Below are positions 9,168 to 13,830 of a DNA stretch of 64,000 bases, one piece after another (positions within the stretch are counted from its first letter, which is position 1; every line of letters starts with the position of its first letter). Position numbers and translations under genes: made by a program. Source of the DNA: Streptomyces sp. NBC_01445 (GTDB lineage: Bacteria; Actinomycetota; Actinomycetes; Streptomycetales; Streptomycetaceae); assembly GCF_035918235.1 (NCBI RefSeq), contig NZ_CP109485.1, forward strand, positions 1,488,001 through 1,552,000, in the 5' to 3' direction. The notes under the pieces are model-generated. The model saw only the letters and a list, made by a program, of their open reading frames with translations. It ran no database searches and was not told the origin of the DNA.

Positions 9168-9204
9168 GATCCCGGCACCCGCCCGCAGCTCCGGTGCCGG
9201 GATC
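9168..9204 (-). terminator. Hairpin terminator after the serine hydrolase gene
   Basis: GATCCCGGCACC (9168-9179) pairs perfectly with GGTGCCGGGATC (9193-9204), a 12-bp stem with a 13-nt loop. It begins just past the stop of the serine hydrolase gene (9227, minus strand). No U-run follows, as is common for Streptomyces terminators. Confidence 0.7.
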
Positions 9205-9226
9205 GGATCACCGTCCTCTCCCGGCG

Positions 9227-10456
9227 TCAGTCGTCGATCGCCTGGTAGAGCGTGGTCCAGAAGTCGAGCATGAGATGCACCGGATCCGGGACGGACGCCC
9301 CCACCTGGGTGAGCAGGATTCCGGTGAGCTGGTTGTCCGGGTCGGCATAGGTCGAGGTGCCGCTTCCGCCGTCCCAGCCGAACTGGCCGATGGGCGCGTA
9401 GTCACCGCGATAGGTGCGCACCGCCATCCCGAAGCCCCAGCCGCCGTGCTGCCCCTGACCGTGGGACACATGGACGTTGTCGACCGCCAACTTGTGCCGG
9501 GCGGCGTGCTGTTCGGGCGAGAGGCGGTTGGTGGTCATCAGCTCGACGGCGGCCCGCGACAGGATCCGTTCGCCCTCGTGCATCCCGCCGTTGAGCAGCA
9601 TCCGGAAGTAGGCGTGGTAGTCGTCCGCGGTGGAGTTCAGTCCGCCGCCCCCACCCTGGAACGCCGGCGGCGCGCTGTGGCGTCCCGTCTCGGCCTCGTC
9701 CCACACCTGGAACTCGCCGGTCCCCGGGTCGGGGGCGTACAGGGGCGGCAGCCGGTGGAGTTGGTCGGCCGGCACGTGGAACCCGGTGTCCTTCATGCCC
9801 AGCGGCTCGAAGACACGCTCGCGCAAGAACGACTCGAACGACTGCCCTGCGACCCTGGCGACGAGCACTCCCACCAGATCGCTGCTGATCTGGTACTGCC
9901 AGCACTCTCCGGGCTGGTACATCAGCGGAAGCGTGCCCAGACGGCGCATCCACTCGTCCGGCTCGGGCATCGGCTCCGGCAGGTTGGGGGTGATCCCCTG
10001 CTCGAAGACGGCGTTCATGATCGGCGTGCCGAGCACCGTCATATCCATGCCGAGGCCGAACGTGGAGGTCAGCACGTCCCGTACGGTGATCGGCCGGCGT
10101 GCCGGCACGGTCTCGTCCAGCGGGCCGTCGACCCGCTTCAGCACCTGGCGGTCGGCCAGTTCCGGAAGCCACTGGTCCACGGAGTCGTCGAGGCGCAGCC
10201 TGCACTCGTCGAGCAGGACCATCGCCGCCGCGATGGAGACCGGCTTGGACGTGGAAGCCATCCGGAAGATCGTGTCCCGGCGCATCGGCGCGCCGCCGTC
10301 GTGACGCACCGTCCCGATCGTTTCGACATGGCTCTCGTCACCCCGGCTGAACAGCGCGACAAGGCCGGGAATCTTCCCTGAGTCGACATGCCGCGACAGC
10401 ACGTCGTGCACCCGGTTCAACCCCGTCTTGGTGAAGCCGCTTATGCCAGTCCCCAT
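9227..10456 (-). CDS. Serine hydrolase, class C beta-lactamase / EstB-like esterase
   Basis: This protein of about 409 residues belongs to the beta-lactamase-related serine hydrolases. The nucleophile motif S-x-x-K appears as STSK in RMASTSKPVS, a YxxS-type second motif is in WQYQISSD, and the third motif is HGGWGFG. No signal peptide is visible, so a cytoplasmic esterase or transesterase is more likely than an antibiotic-degrading exoenzyme. The start cluster has two adjacent ATGs (10459 and 10456) behind AGGGGAG; I prefer 10456, 7 nt from the purine run. The first ATG overlaps the stop of a small upstream ORF (TGATG). Three tandem 16-bp repeats lie immediately upstream. Confidence 0.85.
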   Translation of the reverse strand: MGTGISGFTKTGLNRVHDVLSRHVDSGKIPGLVALFSRGDESHVETIGTVRHDGGAPMRRDTIFRMASTSKPVSIAAAMVLLDECRLRLDDSVDQWLPELADRQVLKRVDGPLDETVPARRPITVRDVLTSTFGLGMDMTVLGTPIMNAVFEQGITPNLPEPMPEPDEWMRRLGTLPLMYQPGECWQYQISSDLVGVLVARVAGQSFESFLRERVFEPLGMKDTGFHVPADQLHRLPPLYAPDPGTGEFQVWDEAETGRHSAPPAFQGGGGGLNSTADDYHAYFRMLLNGGMHEGERILSRAAVELMTTNRLSPEQHAARHKLAVDNVHVSHGQGQHGGWGFGMAVRTYRGDYAPIGQFGWDGGSGTSTYADPDNQLTGILLTQVGASVPDPVHLMLDFWTTLYQAIDD

Positions 10457-10458
10457 CA

Positions 10459-10641
10459 TCAATCTCCCCTATGCAGTGTTCGATACATGCAGTGCTCGAT
10501 ACATGCAGTGCTCGACACAAGCGGGACCCGCCCCCGTCTGGCGCTCATGGCTTCCACGAGCGGCGCGCGGACCGCTCTGCGCGGGCTCCGTCCGGTCAGG
10601 TCACGCAGCTGCCGCAGCCGGCCCGCCGACTCCTCACTCAC
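10459..10641 (-). CDS. Possible 60-residue leader ORF before the serine hydrolase
   Basis: A GTG at 10641, preceded by AGGGGGG nine bases upstream, opens a frame of about 60 codons (start VSEESAGRLRQLRDL). It reads through the three tandem repeats (STACIEHC-type translation) and stops in TGATG at the serine hydrolase start, so it could be translationally coupled. I recognise no family. The repeat-encoded C-terminus looks non-structural, so it may be a regulatory leader, a remnant of a regulator, or chance. Confidence 0.25.
   Translation of the reverse strand: MSEESAGRLRQLRDLTGRSPRRAVRAPLVEAMSARRGRVPLVSSTACIEHCMYRTLHRGD
10471..10518. repeat. Three tandem 16-bp repeats in the serine hydrolase leader
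   Basis: The units are ATGCAGTGTTCGATAC (10471-10486), ATGCAGTGCTCGATAC (10487-10502) and ATGCAGTGCTCGACAC (10503-10518). They are contiguous, each differs from its neighbour at one position, and they end a few bases from the AGGGGAG ribosome site. Such exact short-period repeats beside a start suggest cooperative operator sites or a structured leader. Confidence 0.8.
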
Positions 10642-10848
10642 TCTCGCCAGCCCCCCTGCAGGTTCATCTCATCCGATGATCGCAGGAAACGGCCTCCTCC
10701 TCCCGGGAGTAGCCGACTTTCCTCAAGTCCCCTGCGGACATCTTTCACCGACGCGCGGCAAGGGGAAGGCTGTTGCTTGCCCTTGCGGTCCGTCCAGGTT
10801 CTCAAATCACCATGAACCAGCCGGACTTGGCTCGCCCGGCCGCGCGGC
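10642..10848. other. Gene-free stretch next to the TnpB element
   Basis: No convincing coding frame is seen on either strand. The only structure noted is GCAAGG at about 10768 facing CCTTGC about 20 bases later, a weak hairpin. This may be the downstream flank of the ancestral pirin locus or part of the imported DNA. Confidence 0.3.
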
Positions 10849-10926
10849 TCAGCGCACTCGGCCTCGCGGTTTGAGTGGCACAGCCGGCAGTTCGGGAGCA
10901 GCCAGCGGATCGCCTTCGTACCGTTC
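10849..10926 (-). pseudogene. Remnant of a pirin gene 3' end (diverged copy)
   Basis: Read on the minus strand this is an open C-terminus, ERYEGDPLAAPELP followed by AVPLKPRGRVR and TGA. It matches the C-terminus of the intact pirin gene at 12865-13830 at 21 of 23 residues from the shared Tyr onward. Over 71 nt (10853-10923 against 12869-12939) I count 11 mismatches, about 85 percent identity and mostly silent changes. The homology starts within a few bases of the tnpB stop codon (10927). No N-terminal pirin part accompanies it. It therefore looks like a displaced or imported gene end at the downstream edge of the element. Confidence 0.8.
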
Positions 10927-11020
10927 CTAGATAGTGAGCGGGAGCGAGTCGTAAATCCACTCTCGTTCGCTACGCCCGTCCCGAACGGTGTTGGGCGGGC
11001 TGGGTCGCCGCTTTCGCTTC
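10927..11020 (-). ncRNA. Candidate omega/reRNA overlapping the tnpB 3' end
   Basis: TnpB guide RNAs generally overlap the 3' end of tnpB and run to the right end of the element, with the guide just outside it. Here the last ~90 bases are rich in potential pairings, for example CGCCC facing GGGCG around 10970-10995. The encoded protein tail is low-complexity. If the element ends near 10927, the guide would be the pirin-remnant sequence. This is inference from family biology; no RNA evidence is available. Confidence 0.3.
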
Positions 11021-12573
11021 CCTGGTGGCGTCACCACTGCTGGTGGTGGTCCGGTCCGGGGTGGGCGGTCTCCCTCACGTCCGGGGTTTCGGGGTGCGGC
11101 CTGGGCGATCCGATGCCCCACGCGATCTCTCCGGTCGCGCGGGGGCGGTGTCGTCCGTCGCCGCGCCCCGAATCCCTGGGCGCGCCTTCCGATCACGAGG
11201 CTCGCGGCCTCATGTCGGGTGGTCTGATGGGTGGGGCTGCTGGTCGGCTTCTGCCAGTGCTCGGCGCCCCACCGGCTGCTGTACGCGGCATCGACCGCGA
11301 TCACGCTGATGCCCTGCTCGGCAGCCATCGAAGTGAGCCGGGCAGCCAGCCGTGCGGTGGGAAAGCGAGAGATCAGACGGCGGAAACGCTTGTTACGGCC
11401 GTGCTTCTCTCGGGTCTTGGAGTCCGCGAAATCGAGGTCCTCGATCGCAATAGCGCTCGCGCCACACTGTTGCACGTAGTGGAGCAGGCGGCTGGTGGCG
11501 TGCCGGATCTGCGCATCCCGATGTAGGGCATTGCCGGACAGGTCATAGAAGAAACGCTCTGGACGCCCGACCGGGTTGCCGTGGACATCGATGCGCCAGG
11601 CGGCGTAGTGATCGTTGTTGGTGTCCACGCCGATCACGGTCCCGTCTGCCAGGGCGGCTTCCAGGGTGAGGGGAGGGGCTGGGGTGCGTTGCCAGGATGC
11701 CGTCACATACCAGCGGTCTCGCACCACATCGTGGTGGATGCGATACGCAACTGCCCGGTGATCGGCGACCCTGTCCGCCCACTCCTGGCCCTGGTGCGCG
11801 AACACCGCCCGGGCGGCCAGCACGTAGCGGCCGTGCGGGGCGTTCGCCAAGTGGGCGAGCGGGGCGGGGAGTTTGAGGCTCAACTGCCCGTCAAGATCGA
11901 GACGGATAGTCTCGTTGCCGAGGCGTTTGCCGGACTCGCCGTCAGCGGACAGGAACATCCGGGCCGCCTCCCAACGAGAGCGCCACCCCTGCTCGCTGAG
12001 CCCGGCCGTATCCAGGTGATGCCGGGTATTGGCCAGCCGCTTGCCGCCACGCACCACCCGCACCCGGCCCGTCACCCAATCTGCGCGCGCCAGGGCCAAA
12101 CCGTCCTCAAGGACGTGCAGGCGGCGGGACTTGGCATGCCACTCACGCCGGGAGCGATACCCGCCCGGCATTCCCCGCTGGCCCTTGGCGCCCAGCTCCA
12201 GCGCGAGGCGCTGCCGGATGCAGGTGATGCCCGCTTCCAGCTCCCGGATATGCGCGGCCAGGCACCGCCGCGCGAGCGCCCACTGGTCATGCGAGGCCTT
12301 GGTAATCGACCCTGCCCACCGCGCCGATGAGAGGGCACTCAATTCCCGTTTACGCGCCGCCCATTGACCGGCATCGTGACTGAGTCCAGCCCTGCTGCGG
12401 ACCTTCAGATCCCGTCCGGCCAACGATCCCAAATGCCGCCCCACCACACCGAGCACCTCGGTATCGGTTGCGGACAGGCCCTTGAGACGGGTCCGCACCG
12501 CTACCCCGCTCGGGGACGGAGTCACGAACGGAGCCGCCAACACCCGCAACGCCTTCCCCGCCACCCCACCCAC
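10927..12573 (-). CDS. tnpB: TnpB-like RNA-guided nuclease / transposon accessory protein
   Basis: This is a 548-residue RuvC-fold protein of the IS200/IS605-associated TnpB type. The first RuvC aspartate is in GVDTNNDHYAAW and the glutamate in AIAIEDLDFAD. A third block, VDAAYSSRWGAEHW then TTRHEAASLVIGRR, takes the place of the usual zinc ribbon and DRDxNAAxN motif. No CxxC pair is present, and the usual final Asp aligns with Arg or His. The N-terminal half is helical and basic (VRTRLKGLS onward). The last 70 residues are proline- and arginine-rich, as expected if they overlap a structured guide RNA. There is no TnpA partner nearby. The GTG at 12571-12573 was taken as start, and a second GTG three codons on is possible. 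It is flanked by pirin 3'-end sequences on both sides. Confidence 0.85.
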   Translation of the reverse strand: MGGVAGKALRVLAAPFVTPSPSGVAVRTRLKGLSATDTEVLGVVGRHLGSLAGRDLKVRSRAGLSHDAGQWAARKRELSALSSARWAGSITKASHDQWALARRCLAAHIRELEAGITCIRQRLALELGAKGQRGMPGGYRSRREWHAKSRRLHVLEDGLALARADWVTGRVRVVRGGKRLANTRHHLDTAGLSEQGWRSRWEAARMFLSADGESGKRLGNETIRLDLDGQLSLKLPAPLAHLANAPHGRYVLAARAVFAHQGQEWADRVADHRAVAYRIHHDVVRDRWYVTASWQRTPAPPLTLEAALADGTVIGVDTNNDHYAAWRIDVHGNPVGRPERFFYDLSGNALHRDAQIRHATSRLLHYVQQCGASAIAIEDLDFADSKTREKHGRNKRFRRLISRFPTARLAARLTSMAAEQGISVIAVDAAYSSRWGAEHWQKPTSSPTHQTTRHEAASLVIGRRAQGFGARRRTTPPPRDRRDRVGHRIAQAAPRNPGREGDRPPRTGPPPAVVTPPGKRKRRPSPPNTVRDGRSEREWIYDSLPLTI

Positions 12574-12864
12574 TCCGTCCAGCGAGCCACTCGCGCAATC
12601 CGATCATCAGTCCACCCACCCAACGAGCCCCACCCGACCGAGGTCACGCATTCGACACAGGATTCCGTGTTCCCACCGGACGCTCCACACACTCACACTC
12701 ACTCCTGCGCGGATGAGGGCTGCCCATGGGTGACGAGACCTGCGACTCGCGGACGTGGAGTCACAGTCCCCCGAACAGCGTTTGCGATCGCAGTGAAGGG
12801 AAGCCGGGCGAGTCGACTTCGCCGTGCGCCCGGCCTCGCAGAGGTCACGCCACAAAGATGCAGT
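12574..12864. other. Intergenic DNA between tnpB and the intact pirin gene
   Basis: It is 291 bp without a credible gene. It holds a hairpin just past the pirin stop (see the separate entry), and GAGGTCACGC occurs twice (about 12639 and 12841). The left end of the TnpB element should lie here, but I could not identify it. Confidence 0.4.
12803..12834 (-). terminator. Hairpin after the intact pirin gene
   Basis: GCCGGGCG (12803-12810) and CGCCCGGC (12827-12834) form a perfect 8-bp stem with a 16-nt loop, about 30 nt past the pirin stop. Confidence 0.55.
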
Positions 12865-13830
12865 TCAACGCACCCGGCCTCGGGGTTTAAGCGGCACAGG
12901 CGGCAGCTCGGGCGCAGCCAACGGATCCCCGCCGTACCCCTTCACCTCCCCGAACCTCGACCCGCTCATCCAGTCCTCCCGGGCCTGGGTGATGTCGTCG
13001 TGCGACCGGCCGATGAAGTTCCACCACATGATCAGTTCCTCCTCGAACGGCTCGCCGCCGAGGAGCATCAGGGAAGCGTCCGACTCGGCGCGCAGGGGGA
13101 GTTCGGTGCGGCCGCAGCCCAGGTAGAGCATGGAGCCGGGCAGGACAGGGACGCCGTCGACGTGGGCCTCGCCCGACATGGACAGGACCGCGTACTCGAA
13201 GTCCGGTTCGAGGGGGACGCTGAGATCGGCCCCGCGCGTGAGGCTGAGGTCCGCCCCGACGATGGGCGTGTACGTCGTGCCGGGTGACGCGGCGCCGTCC
13301 AGCTCGCCGAGGATCAGGGTCGCGCTCAGGCCGGGGGCCGTGACCTGGGGCAGGTCGGCGTGGTGCTCGAAGCGGGGTTCCGTGTGGCGGTGGCTGTCCG
13401 GCAGGGCGACCCACAGCTGCGCGCCGTGCAGAAGGCGGGCGTGCGGGCGCGGGCTCTCCTCGGAGTGGCTGATGGCCCGTCCGGACGTCATGAGTCCCAG
13501 CTCGCGGGGCCTGATCGTCTGGAGGCTGCCCGTGGAGTCGCGGTGCAGGACCTCCCCCTCGTGCAGCCAGCTCACCGTCTGCAGCCCCATGTGGGGGTGG
13601 GGCGGCACCTGCATGCCGGGTTCGTCGGCGATGTCGTCGGGCCCGTAGTGATCGACGAAGGCCCAGGCGCCGACCATGCGGCGGCCGAGGTTCGGAAGCA
13701 GCCTGCGGACCTCGGTGGACTCGCCGAGCTTCACGCGCCGGGGGGAGAGGAGTTCACGTACGGGCTCCGCCACGACGAAGCCCCGGCCGCCGCACATGGT
13801 CGGCACCGCCTCGCGATCAAGATTGCTCAT
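12865..13830 (-). CDS. Pirin family protein (cupin)
   Basis: This is a 321-residue bicupin. The N-terminal pirin cupin carries the metal-binding motif PHPHMGLQTVSWLHEGEV (about 77-94) and the later HSEESP segment. The C-terminal half is the pirin_C domain, including GGEPFEEELIMWWNFIGRS. Pirins bind Fe(II), and some act as quercetin dioxygenases or redox-dependent regulators; the role here cannot be fixed. The ATG at 13828-13830 has only a weak ribosome site (TAGG). The gene is complete, but a diverged copy of its last ~25 codons lies on the far side of the TnpB gene downstream. Confidence 0.9.
   Translation of the reverse strand: MSNLDREAVPTMCGGRGFVVAEPVRELLSPRRVKLGESTEVRRLLPNLGRRMVGAWAFVDHYGPDDIADEPGMQVPPHPHMGLQTVSWLHEGEVLHRDSTGSLQTIRPRELGLMTSGRAISHSEESPRPHARLLHGAQLWVALPDSHRHTEPRFEHHADLPQVTAPGLSATLILGELDGAASPGTTYTPIVGADLSLTRGADLSVPLEPDFEYAVLSMSGEAHVDGVPVLPGSMLYLGCGRTELPLRAESDASLMLLGGEPFEEELIMWWNFIGRSHDDITQAREDWMSGSRFGEVKGYGGDPLAAPELPPVPLKPRGRVR

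Follow-up and report, generated by a model that had tools for sequence, protein, structure and literature searches.

Why should the 3' end of an intact gene recur, in diverged form, on the far side of a mobile element? This question is raised by a 64,000-nucleotide (nt) stretch of the Streptomyces sp. NBC_01445 chromosome (contig NZ_CP109485.1, positions 1,488,001 to 1,552,000; hereafter the window), in which an IS607-type TnpB element lies between the end of an intact pirin gene and a displaced copy of that end. All window features with strand are on the minus strand. Comparison with related genomes makes it likely that an integrative element replaced the end of the pirin gene, that the TnpB element then entered the displaced native end, and that a deletion removed the rest. 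The carrier of the replacement end was probably a tyrosine-integrase element with the pirin 3' end as its target. Judged from these comparisons, pirin looks like a recurrent target of integrases and not a preferred target of TnpB.

A repeated gene end and its empty site

The pirin gene (12865..13830, 321 aa) matches PF02678 (5.6e-24) and PF05726 (3e-20). Its final 72 nt (12865..12936, the A-end) recur on the same strand at 10849..10920 (the B-end), 2,016 bp away, with 12 mismatches. An earlier note on this DNA had described the recurrence of the gene end beyond tnpB in the same orientation, and both realignment and a genome search bear it out. The note's count of 11 mismatches in 71 nt, mostly silent, is right to within one position, and 9 of the 11 changed codons are silent. 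A search of the window genome alone recovers the B-end as pirin residues 295-321 (78% identity, E 3e-6), so the repeat is not due to chance. The note had placed the copy at 10849-10926; the start of this span holds, but homology to pirin stops at 10920, and the conserved right end of TnpB, ..TAGGAACGG(T), takes over from 10921.

A vacant version of the locus is present in G177, a genome of the same species, in which the pirin gene leads directly into the DNA found beyond the remnant in the window. The G177 pirin end differs from the B-end at 1 of 72 nt and from the A-end at 11 of 72, against 8 differences in 894 nt between the bodies of the G177 and window genes (Fisher 8.7e-9). It reads AAGGGGT|ACGAAGG at the site, so the remnant side of the TnpB element is an ordinary insertion into a B-version gene end. 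The empty-site comparison proposed in the earlier note thus shows the remnant's version to be an ordinary host gene end, and the B-end is read as the orphaned, displaced native 3' end of pirin. The note's view that the copy is not a recent duplication also stands, and duplication within the strain was dropped, because 12 of 72 nt differ and the remnant's end is present in G177.

The other side of the TnpB element has a different appearance. On comparison with G177 and G324, the A-end is read as the replacement gene end of the integrative element. The 152 nt past the intact pirin (12713..12864) are common to the window and G324, and a homologue in G328 matches at about 82% over a joint match with pirin. 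In G324 and G328, TGCTGAC repeats lie at offsets 159 and 170, and the homology between the window and G324 breaks 8 nt short of the first of them. Together, the A-end and the 152 nt would represent the left end of the integrative element. At 12712..12713 (no strand assigned) this sequence meets the clipped left end of the TnpB element in the junction TCAT|CCGCGC, which comparison with G324 and with locus L059 (Streptomyces sp. CB01635) marks as illegitimate, with 0-1 bp of microhomology.

The TnpB element and its insertion sites

The TnpB element (10921..12712) has a complete right end (..GGAACGG) and lacks the first 30 nt of its left end, as defined by the L059/G177 and G324 copies with their empty sites. 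When 392 genomes of the genus were searched at the DNA level (E <= 1e-250, two candidates scored in each), close copies turned up in just three, namely the window genome, G177 and G324, at three distinct loci. The G177 and G324 copies are 93-95% identical in nucleotide sequence to that of the window and occupy loci unrelated to pirin. Both the window genome and G324 are vacant at the G177 site, and both the window genome and G177 at the G324 site. Vacant sites read CAGGGGT|flank and occupied sites CAGGGGT|GGCGA...GGAACGGT|flank, with target bases neither lost nor gained. TnpB insertion is thus a scarless insertion at a GG core with a fixed next T, as for IS607. In the window this target-derived T is position 10920 (10920..10920), and GGT is found at nearly all located right ends. 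The G177 copy and its flanks are 100% identical to L059 over 4,851 nt, and the two may be one and the same strain.

A scan of named genomes gave 121 TnpB relatives, of which the best 80 were kept. In most relatives homology halts at ..TAGGAACGGT and the flanks are variable; in others the alignment ends earlier. The earlier note had considered pirin a possible preferred target of the element, and had proposed a search for right ends repeatedly adjoining a pirin 3' end. That search found pirin at 0 of the 80 TnpB loci (up to 4 kb of flank, less where a contig ended), and no pirin sequence was found in the ends or flanks of the G177 and G324 copies; pirin as a TnpB target was accordingly dropped. 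The same results bear on the idea that the replacement pirin end is cargo of the TnpB element, with pirin as its insertion site. This would account for an element flanked by two pirin ends, but it is contradicted, and left hardly credible, by the kin copies, whose loci are unrelated and whose empty sites are clean, and by the absence of pirin from the fetched flanks of all 80 loci. The note's suggestion of an element that restores pirin by bringing a new gene end is probably right in kind, with something other than TnpB as the carrier.

The tnpB gene (10927..12573, 548 aa) matches NCBIfam TIGR01766 at 34.1 bits (cut-off 32) and NF040570 at 43 bits, under the cut-off of 100; no Pfam match was found for this open reading frame (ORF) at 1e-3. 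The RuvC acids are D317, E378 and E455. The third is Glu in the window TnpB and in L059, L171, L076 and L098, a set that includes the two closest copies of the window TnpB; it is Asp in 72 of 82 relatives, and Ala or Gln in four others. Zinc-finger cysteines are absent from the window protein, the only Cys residues being at positions 104, 118 and 370 of 548. Nonsynonymous and synonymous divergence from the G324 copy are dN 0.031 and dS 0.142, and the L059 gene, a copy of the G177 type, is frameshifted. The Glu at the third RuvC position, the dN and dS values and the L059 frameshift together make the activity of the window TnpB uncertain.

TnpA-like matches, some of them just short pieces, occur at 23 of the 80 TnpB loci, and the TnpA-like ORF of L067 is a PF00239 resolvase in Pfam. 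No ORF of this kind was noted in the 1.8-kb window copy. A predicted scaffold of the right-end RNA (reRNA) spans 10921..11024; it was aligned together with T10920 and contains a stem with many compensatory pairs (n=74, window copy included). No Rfam match for this RNA was found at E <= 1. A second TnpB copy, 63% identical, lies 2.5 kb past the end of the window (L010, G000:C1:1554527-1556140), with the same right-end motif and an unrelated flank.

Signs of integration at pirin in other genomes

Putative arm-type repeats, counted as at least two TGCTGAC repeats at +140-300 nt past the pirin stop, were found in 16 of 63 genomes, a set picked mostly by likeness to the window pirin or the remnant, with 3 from another genus, and thus not random. 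The repeats keep a close register, with 15 of the 16 repeat-bearing genomes having one at +155-190. Each of four control windows gave 0 of 63, and 200 base shuffles gave a mean of 0.0.

The gene end appears to travel with the DNA beyond it, as is suggested by picked pairs of genomes and by partial Mantel tests. In the picked pair G276/G268, identity rises from 88.4% in the pirin body (nt 1-800) to 93.3% in the end and to 94.7% over the 190 nt beyond it, and in the picked pair G268/G001 it falls from 93.4% to 83.0% and 74.2%. Among 15 repeat-bearing genomes, the end is correlated with the DNA downstream once the body (nt 1-600) is controlled for (partial Mantel 0.449, p 0.003), and it retains some link to the body (0.321, p 0.053). 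The 200 nt before the end track the body (0.757, p 0.0005) and are not clearly tied to what lies downstream (0.207, p 0.086). In 16 repeat-free genomes the link between end and downstream DNA was not found (0.058, p 0.30), apart from a weak one for the last 72 nt alone (0.226, p 0.022).

Displaced pirin ends were also found in eight other genomes (G133, G242, G120, G146, G019, G332, G006 and G244). This count is an underestimate, because the search of 392 genomes with the remnant region as query, which hit pirin ends, some of them apart from the pirin gene already located, scored two candidates per genome, and not all listed places were fetched. The orphans of G133, G242, G120, G146 and G019 begin at pirin nt 802-803, and that of G332 at nt 895. 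Six share the orientation of the intact pirin and lie downstream of it, at 1 kb (G332), 16 kb (G133), 17.5 kb (G244), 60 kb (G242), 184 kb (G120) and about 660 kb (G019); those of G146 and G006 are on a different contig from the intact gene. TGCTGAC-like repeats precede four of the orphans, at 70 and 59 nt upstream, and a further set comes after three, as in tandem arrays. Integrase genes or pieces stand beside five of the eight. The G120 orphan adjoins a whole tyrosine integrase (PF00589, 2.9e-13; PHROG integrase), and the G133 orphan a partial homologue, 74% identical over 262 residues and then broken, whose reading frame has a PHROG integrase match and no Pfam match. N-terminal integrase pieces lie alongside the orphans of G146, G244 and G006. 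Against viral contigs the integrase has 15 relatives, with 22-36% identity in the best segments.

Some individual loci give further detail. The 72-nt orphan of G332 (L206, G332:C71, 39966-40038) starts at pirin base 895, the same as in the window, and lies 960 bp beyond the intact gene; TnpB was not noted among the intervening ORFs. In G120 the orphan (L212, G120:C1, 10271309-10271473) is followed by a TGCTGAC repeat set, and a second identical C-terminal integrase piece lies 4-5 kb away, which suggests tandem accretion of elements at this locus. The 16 kb between pirin and orphan in G133 (L204/L205) encode a 5-formyltetrahydrofolate cyclo-ligase-like protein, a DDE transposase, an ABC transporter, methyltransferases, a NucA/NucB-like DNase and an amidase-like protein. 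The orphan candidates of G313, G275, G046, G182, G234, G385 and G073 proved to be ordinary full-length pirins, that on G328 C46 a 54% paralogue, and that of G318 an ambiguous diverged gene; none was counted.

The segment between pirin and a thioesterase gene is variable, measuring 3.5 kb in the window (9171-12712) and 25 kb in G324 (G324:C1:1361765-1386885). In G324, a 91% match to the beta-lactamase-family gene at 9227-10462 lies far off, at 9.6 Mb.

Proposed history of the locus and its alternatives

In the history that is considered likely, a tyrosine-integrase element would have entered the 3' part of pirin by site-specific recombination, the gene gaining the element's pirin-like end (A) and the native end (B) being moved to the far side of the element. 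The IS607-type TnpB then inserted after AGGGGT in a B-type pirin end via GG recombination, as its right end shows, and the B-type end hit would have been the displaced copy. A deletion would have fused the left end of the integrative element, 152 nt past the pirin stop, to the TnpB left end. Lost with it would be the integrase, the arm sites, the beginning of the displaced end and 30 nt of TnpB. The switch out of host sequence and into that of the element would lie at 12933..12999 (pirin nt 832-898), where the window and G177 are identical between differences at nt 831 and nt 899.

Several observations weigh against this history. The intact pirin of the window differs from that of G324 at 3 of 72 nt in the end and 39 of 894 in the body, an equal divergence, consistent also with simple inheritance of the A-end. 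The window and G177 differ at a single site within pirin nt 802-898, so the switch must sit far to the right in the repeated segment. Neither an integrase nor an arm site nor the displaced end's left half was seen in the window, the space between the two pirin ends included, and the link to an integrative element is thus drawn from the 152 nt shared with G324 and G328. A displaced end was not found in the 109 kb downstream of the G324 pirin, nor in the 20-80 kb fetched for the repeat-bearing G009, G012, G073, G268, G276, G182 and G024 and beside the pirin of G019. At 1e-3, no integrase was found beside the orphans of G242, G019 and G332 (3 of 8) or beside the ambiguous G318 gene. A free form with attP was found neither among phages nor among plasmid records, the latter giving five partial matches.

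The equal divergence from G324 in body and end is what would be expected if two strain haplotypes had recombined with no integrative element at this locus. TnpB would have broken a B-type pirin, and A-type DNA would later have restored the gene, joined by a homologous crossover within pirin on one side and an illegitimate junction with the TnpB left end on the other, with the old end left behind. Such homology-facilitated illegitimate recombination agrees with the illegitimate left junction, and similar displaced gene ends are so explained in part of a report on Vibrio cholerae (PMC5361080). It leaves unexplained, however, the TGCTGAC repeats that follow pirin in 15 genomes in nearly the same register, and the repeated occurrence of displaced ends beginning at pirin nt 802-803, several of them beside integrase genes. 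Arrival by recombination from another strain, which the earlier note had offered as its second explanation, therefore stands as a rival, improbable on balance, and is not the favoured reading. The version of it that takes A as the inherited end and B as an import, drawn from the divergence from G324, was set back by the repeats after pirin and is retained in this role.

One-ended IS607 recombination would offer another route, in which a serine transposase mistook the AGGGGT of an A-type pirin for a left end, and the A-end, the 152 nt and the clipped TnpB were mobilised as a unit and inserted after AGGGGT in a B-type pirin. AGGGGT does occupy the same place in the A and B alleles and exactly bounds the inserted unit. 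The route needs, however, a clipped TnpB already placed 152 nt past an A-type pirin, and among the three close copies found in the 392 genomes only that of the window is so placed, which makes this route very improbable.

A predicted guide against the vacant site

On the history with an integrative element, the position of the TnpB insertion may have had a consequence of its own. The predicted 20-nt guide, ACGAAGGCGATCCGCTGGCT (10900..10919), lies within the displaced end and has a 20/20 match in the G177 pirin adjoining AGGGGT. Siblings that lack, or have lost, the integrative element would thus be targets. The window's own intact pirin would be spared, because its imported end differs from the guide at four positions (4, 5, 8 and 15). 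A TnpB element in the displaced native end would then cut the pirin genes of vacant-site siblings and leave its own intact, a natural cut-and-recoded-rescue arrangement favouring the element-bearing allele. This proposal, read from guide and target letters, is speculative and quite unlikely to be correct as it stands.

Relation to known systems and significance

In the parts of the literature that describe them, IS607 (PMC10711439) and the IS607-family TnpB elements, including ISXfa1 and TnpBs with AGGAG or GAGGG motifs, resemble the window element in GG recombination, a fixed right-flank nucleotide and a G-rich left-flank motif, and in a structured RNA at the right end with the adjoining flank serving as guide, which is predicted here (PMC10711439, PMC11061315). 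The window copy differs in that it lacks tnpA and zinc-finger cysteines, is clipped at its left end and has a Glu as third RuvC acid.

For the integrative element, parallels are found in PAISt, a Streptomyces tyrosine-integrase element described, in the relevant part of the source, as integrating at the 3' end of bacA (PMC4057263), and in actinomycete integrative and conjugative elements, for which direct repeats, decayed copies with partial integrases, and accretion are described in part of another (PMC9513070). In contrast to these, the repeated segment is here a stretch of up to 165 nt from the diverged end of a pirin gene and not a short identical core. Pirin genes are connected with integration in another way. 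Another pirin paralogue of the window genome (L007, G000:C1:5248030, at 5.25 Mb) contains a putative phiC31-like attB core. In the portions of two reports concerned with phiC31, its attB is placed in a pirin-like gene in the central chromosome (PMC7890619), and the integrase is of the serine type, unlike the tyrosine integrase proposed here (PMC12924846). Rhs arrays of type VI secretion systems are alike in that the new version of a gene lies upstream and the old 3' part remains downstream; they differ in that, in the part of the report that treats them, the displacement is not put down to an integrase and TnpB plays no part (PMC5361080).

A tyrosine-integrase site at the pirin 3' end was not found among the titles and abstract openings listed in the literature. 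The pirin 3' end thus appears, as far as such titles and openings tell, to be a recurrent integration site in Streptomyces without an earlier report. Integration at pirin would leave chimeric gene ends and orphan tails, which are handy for spotting decayed elements, and an RNA-guided element may, by the chance of its insertion, gain a guide against the vacant attachment site of another element.

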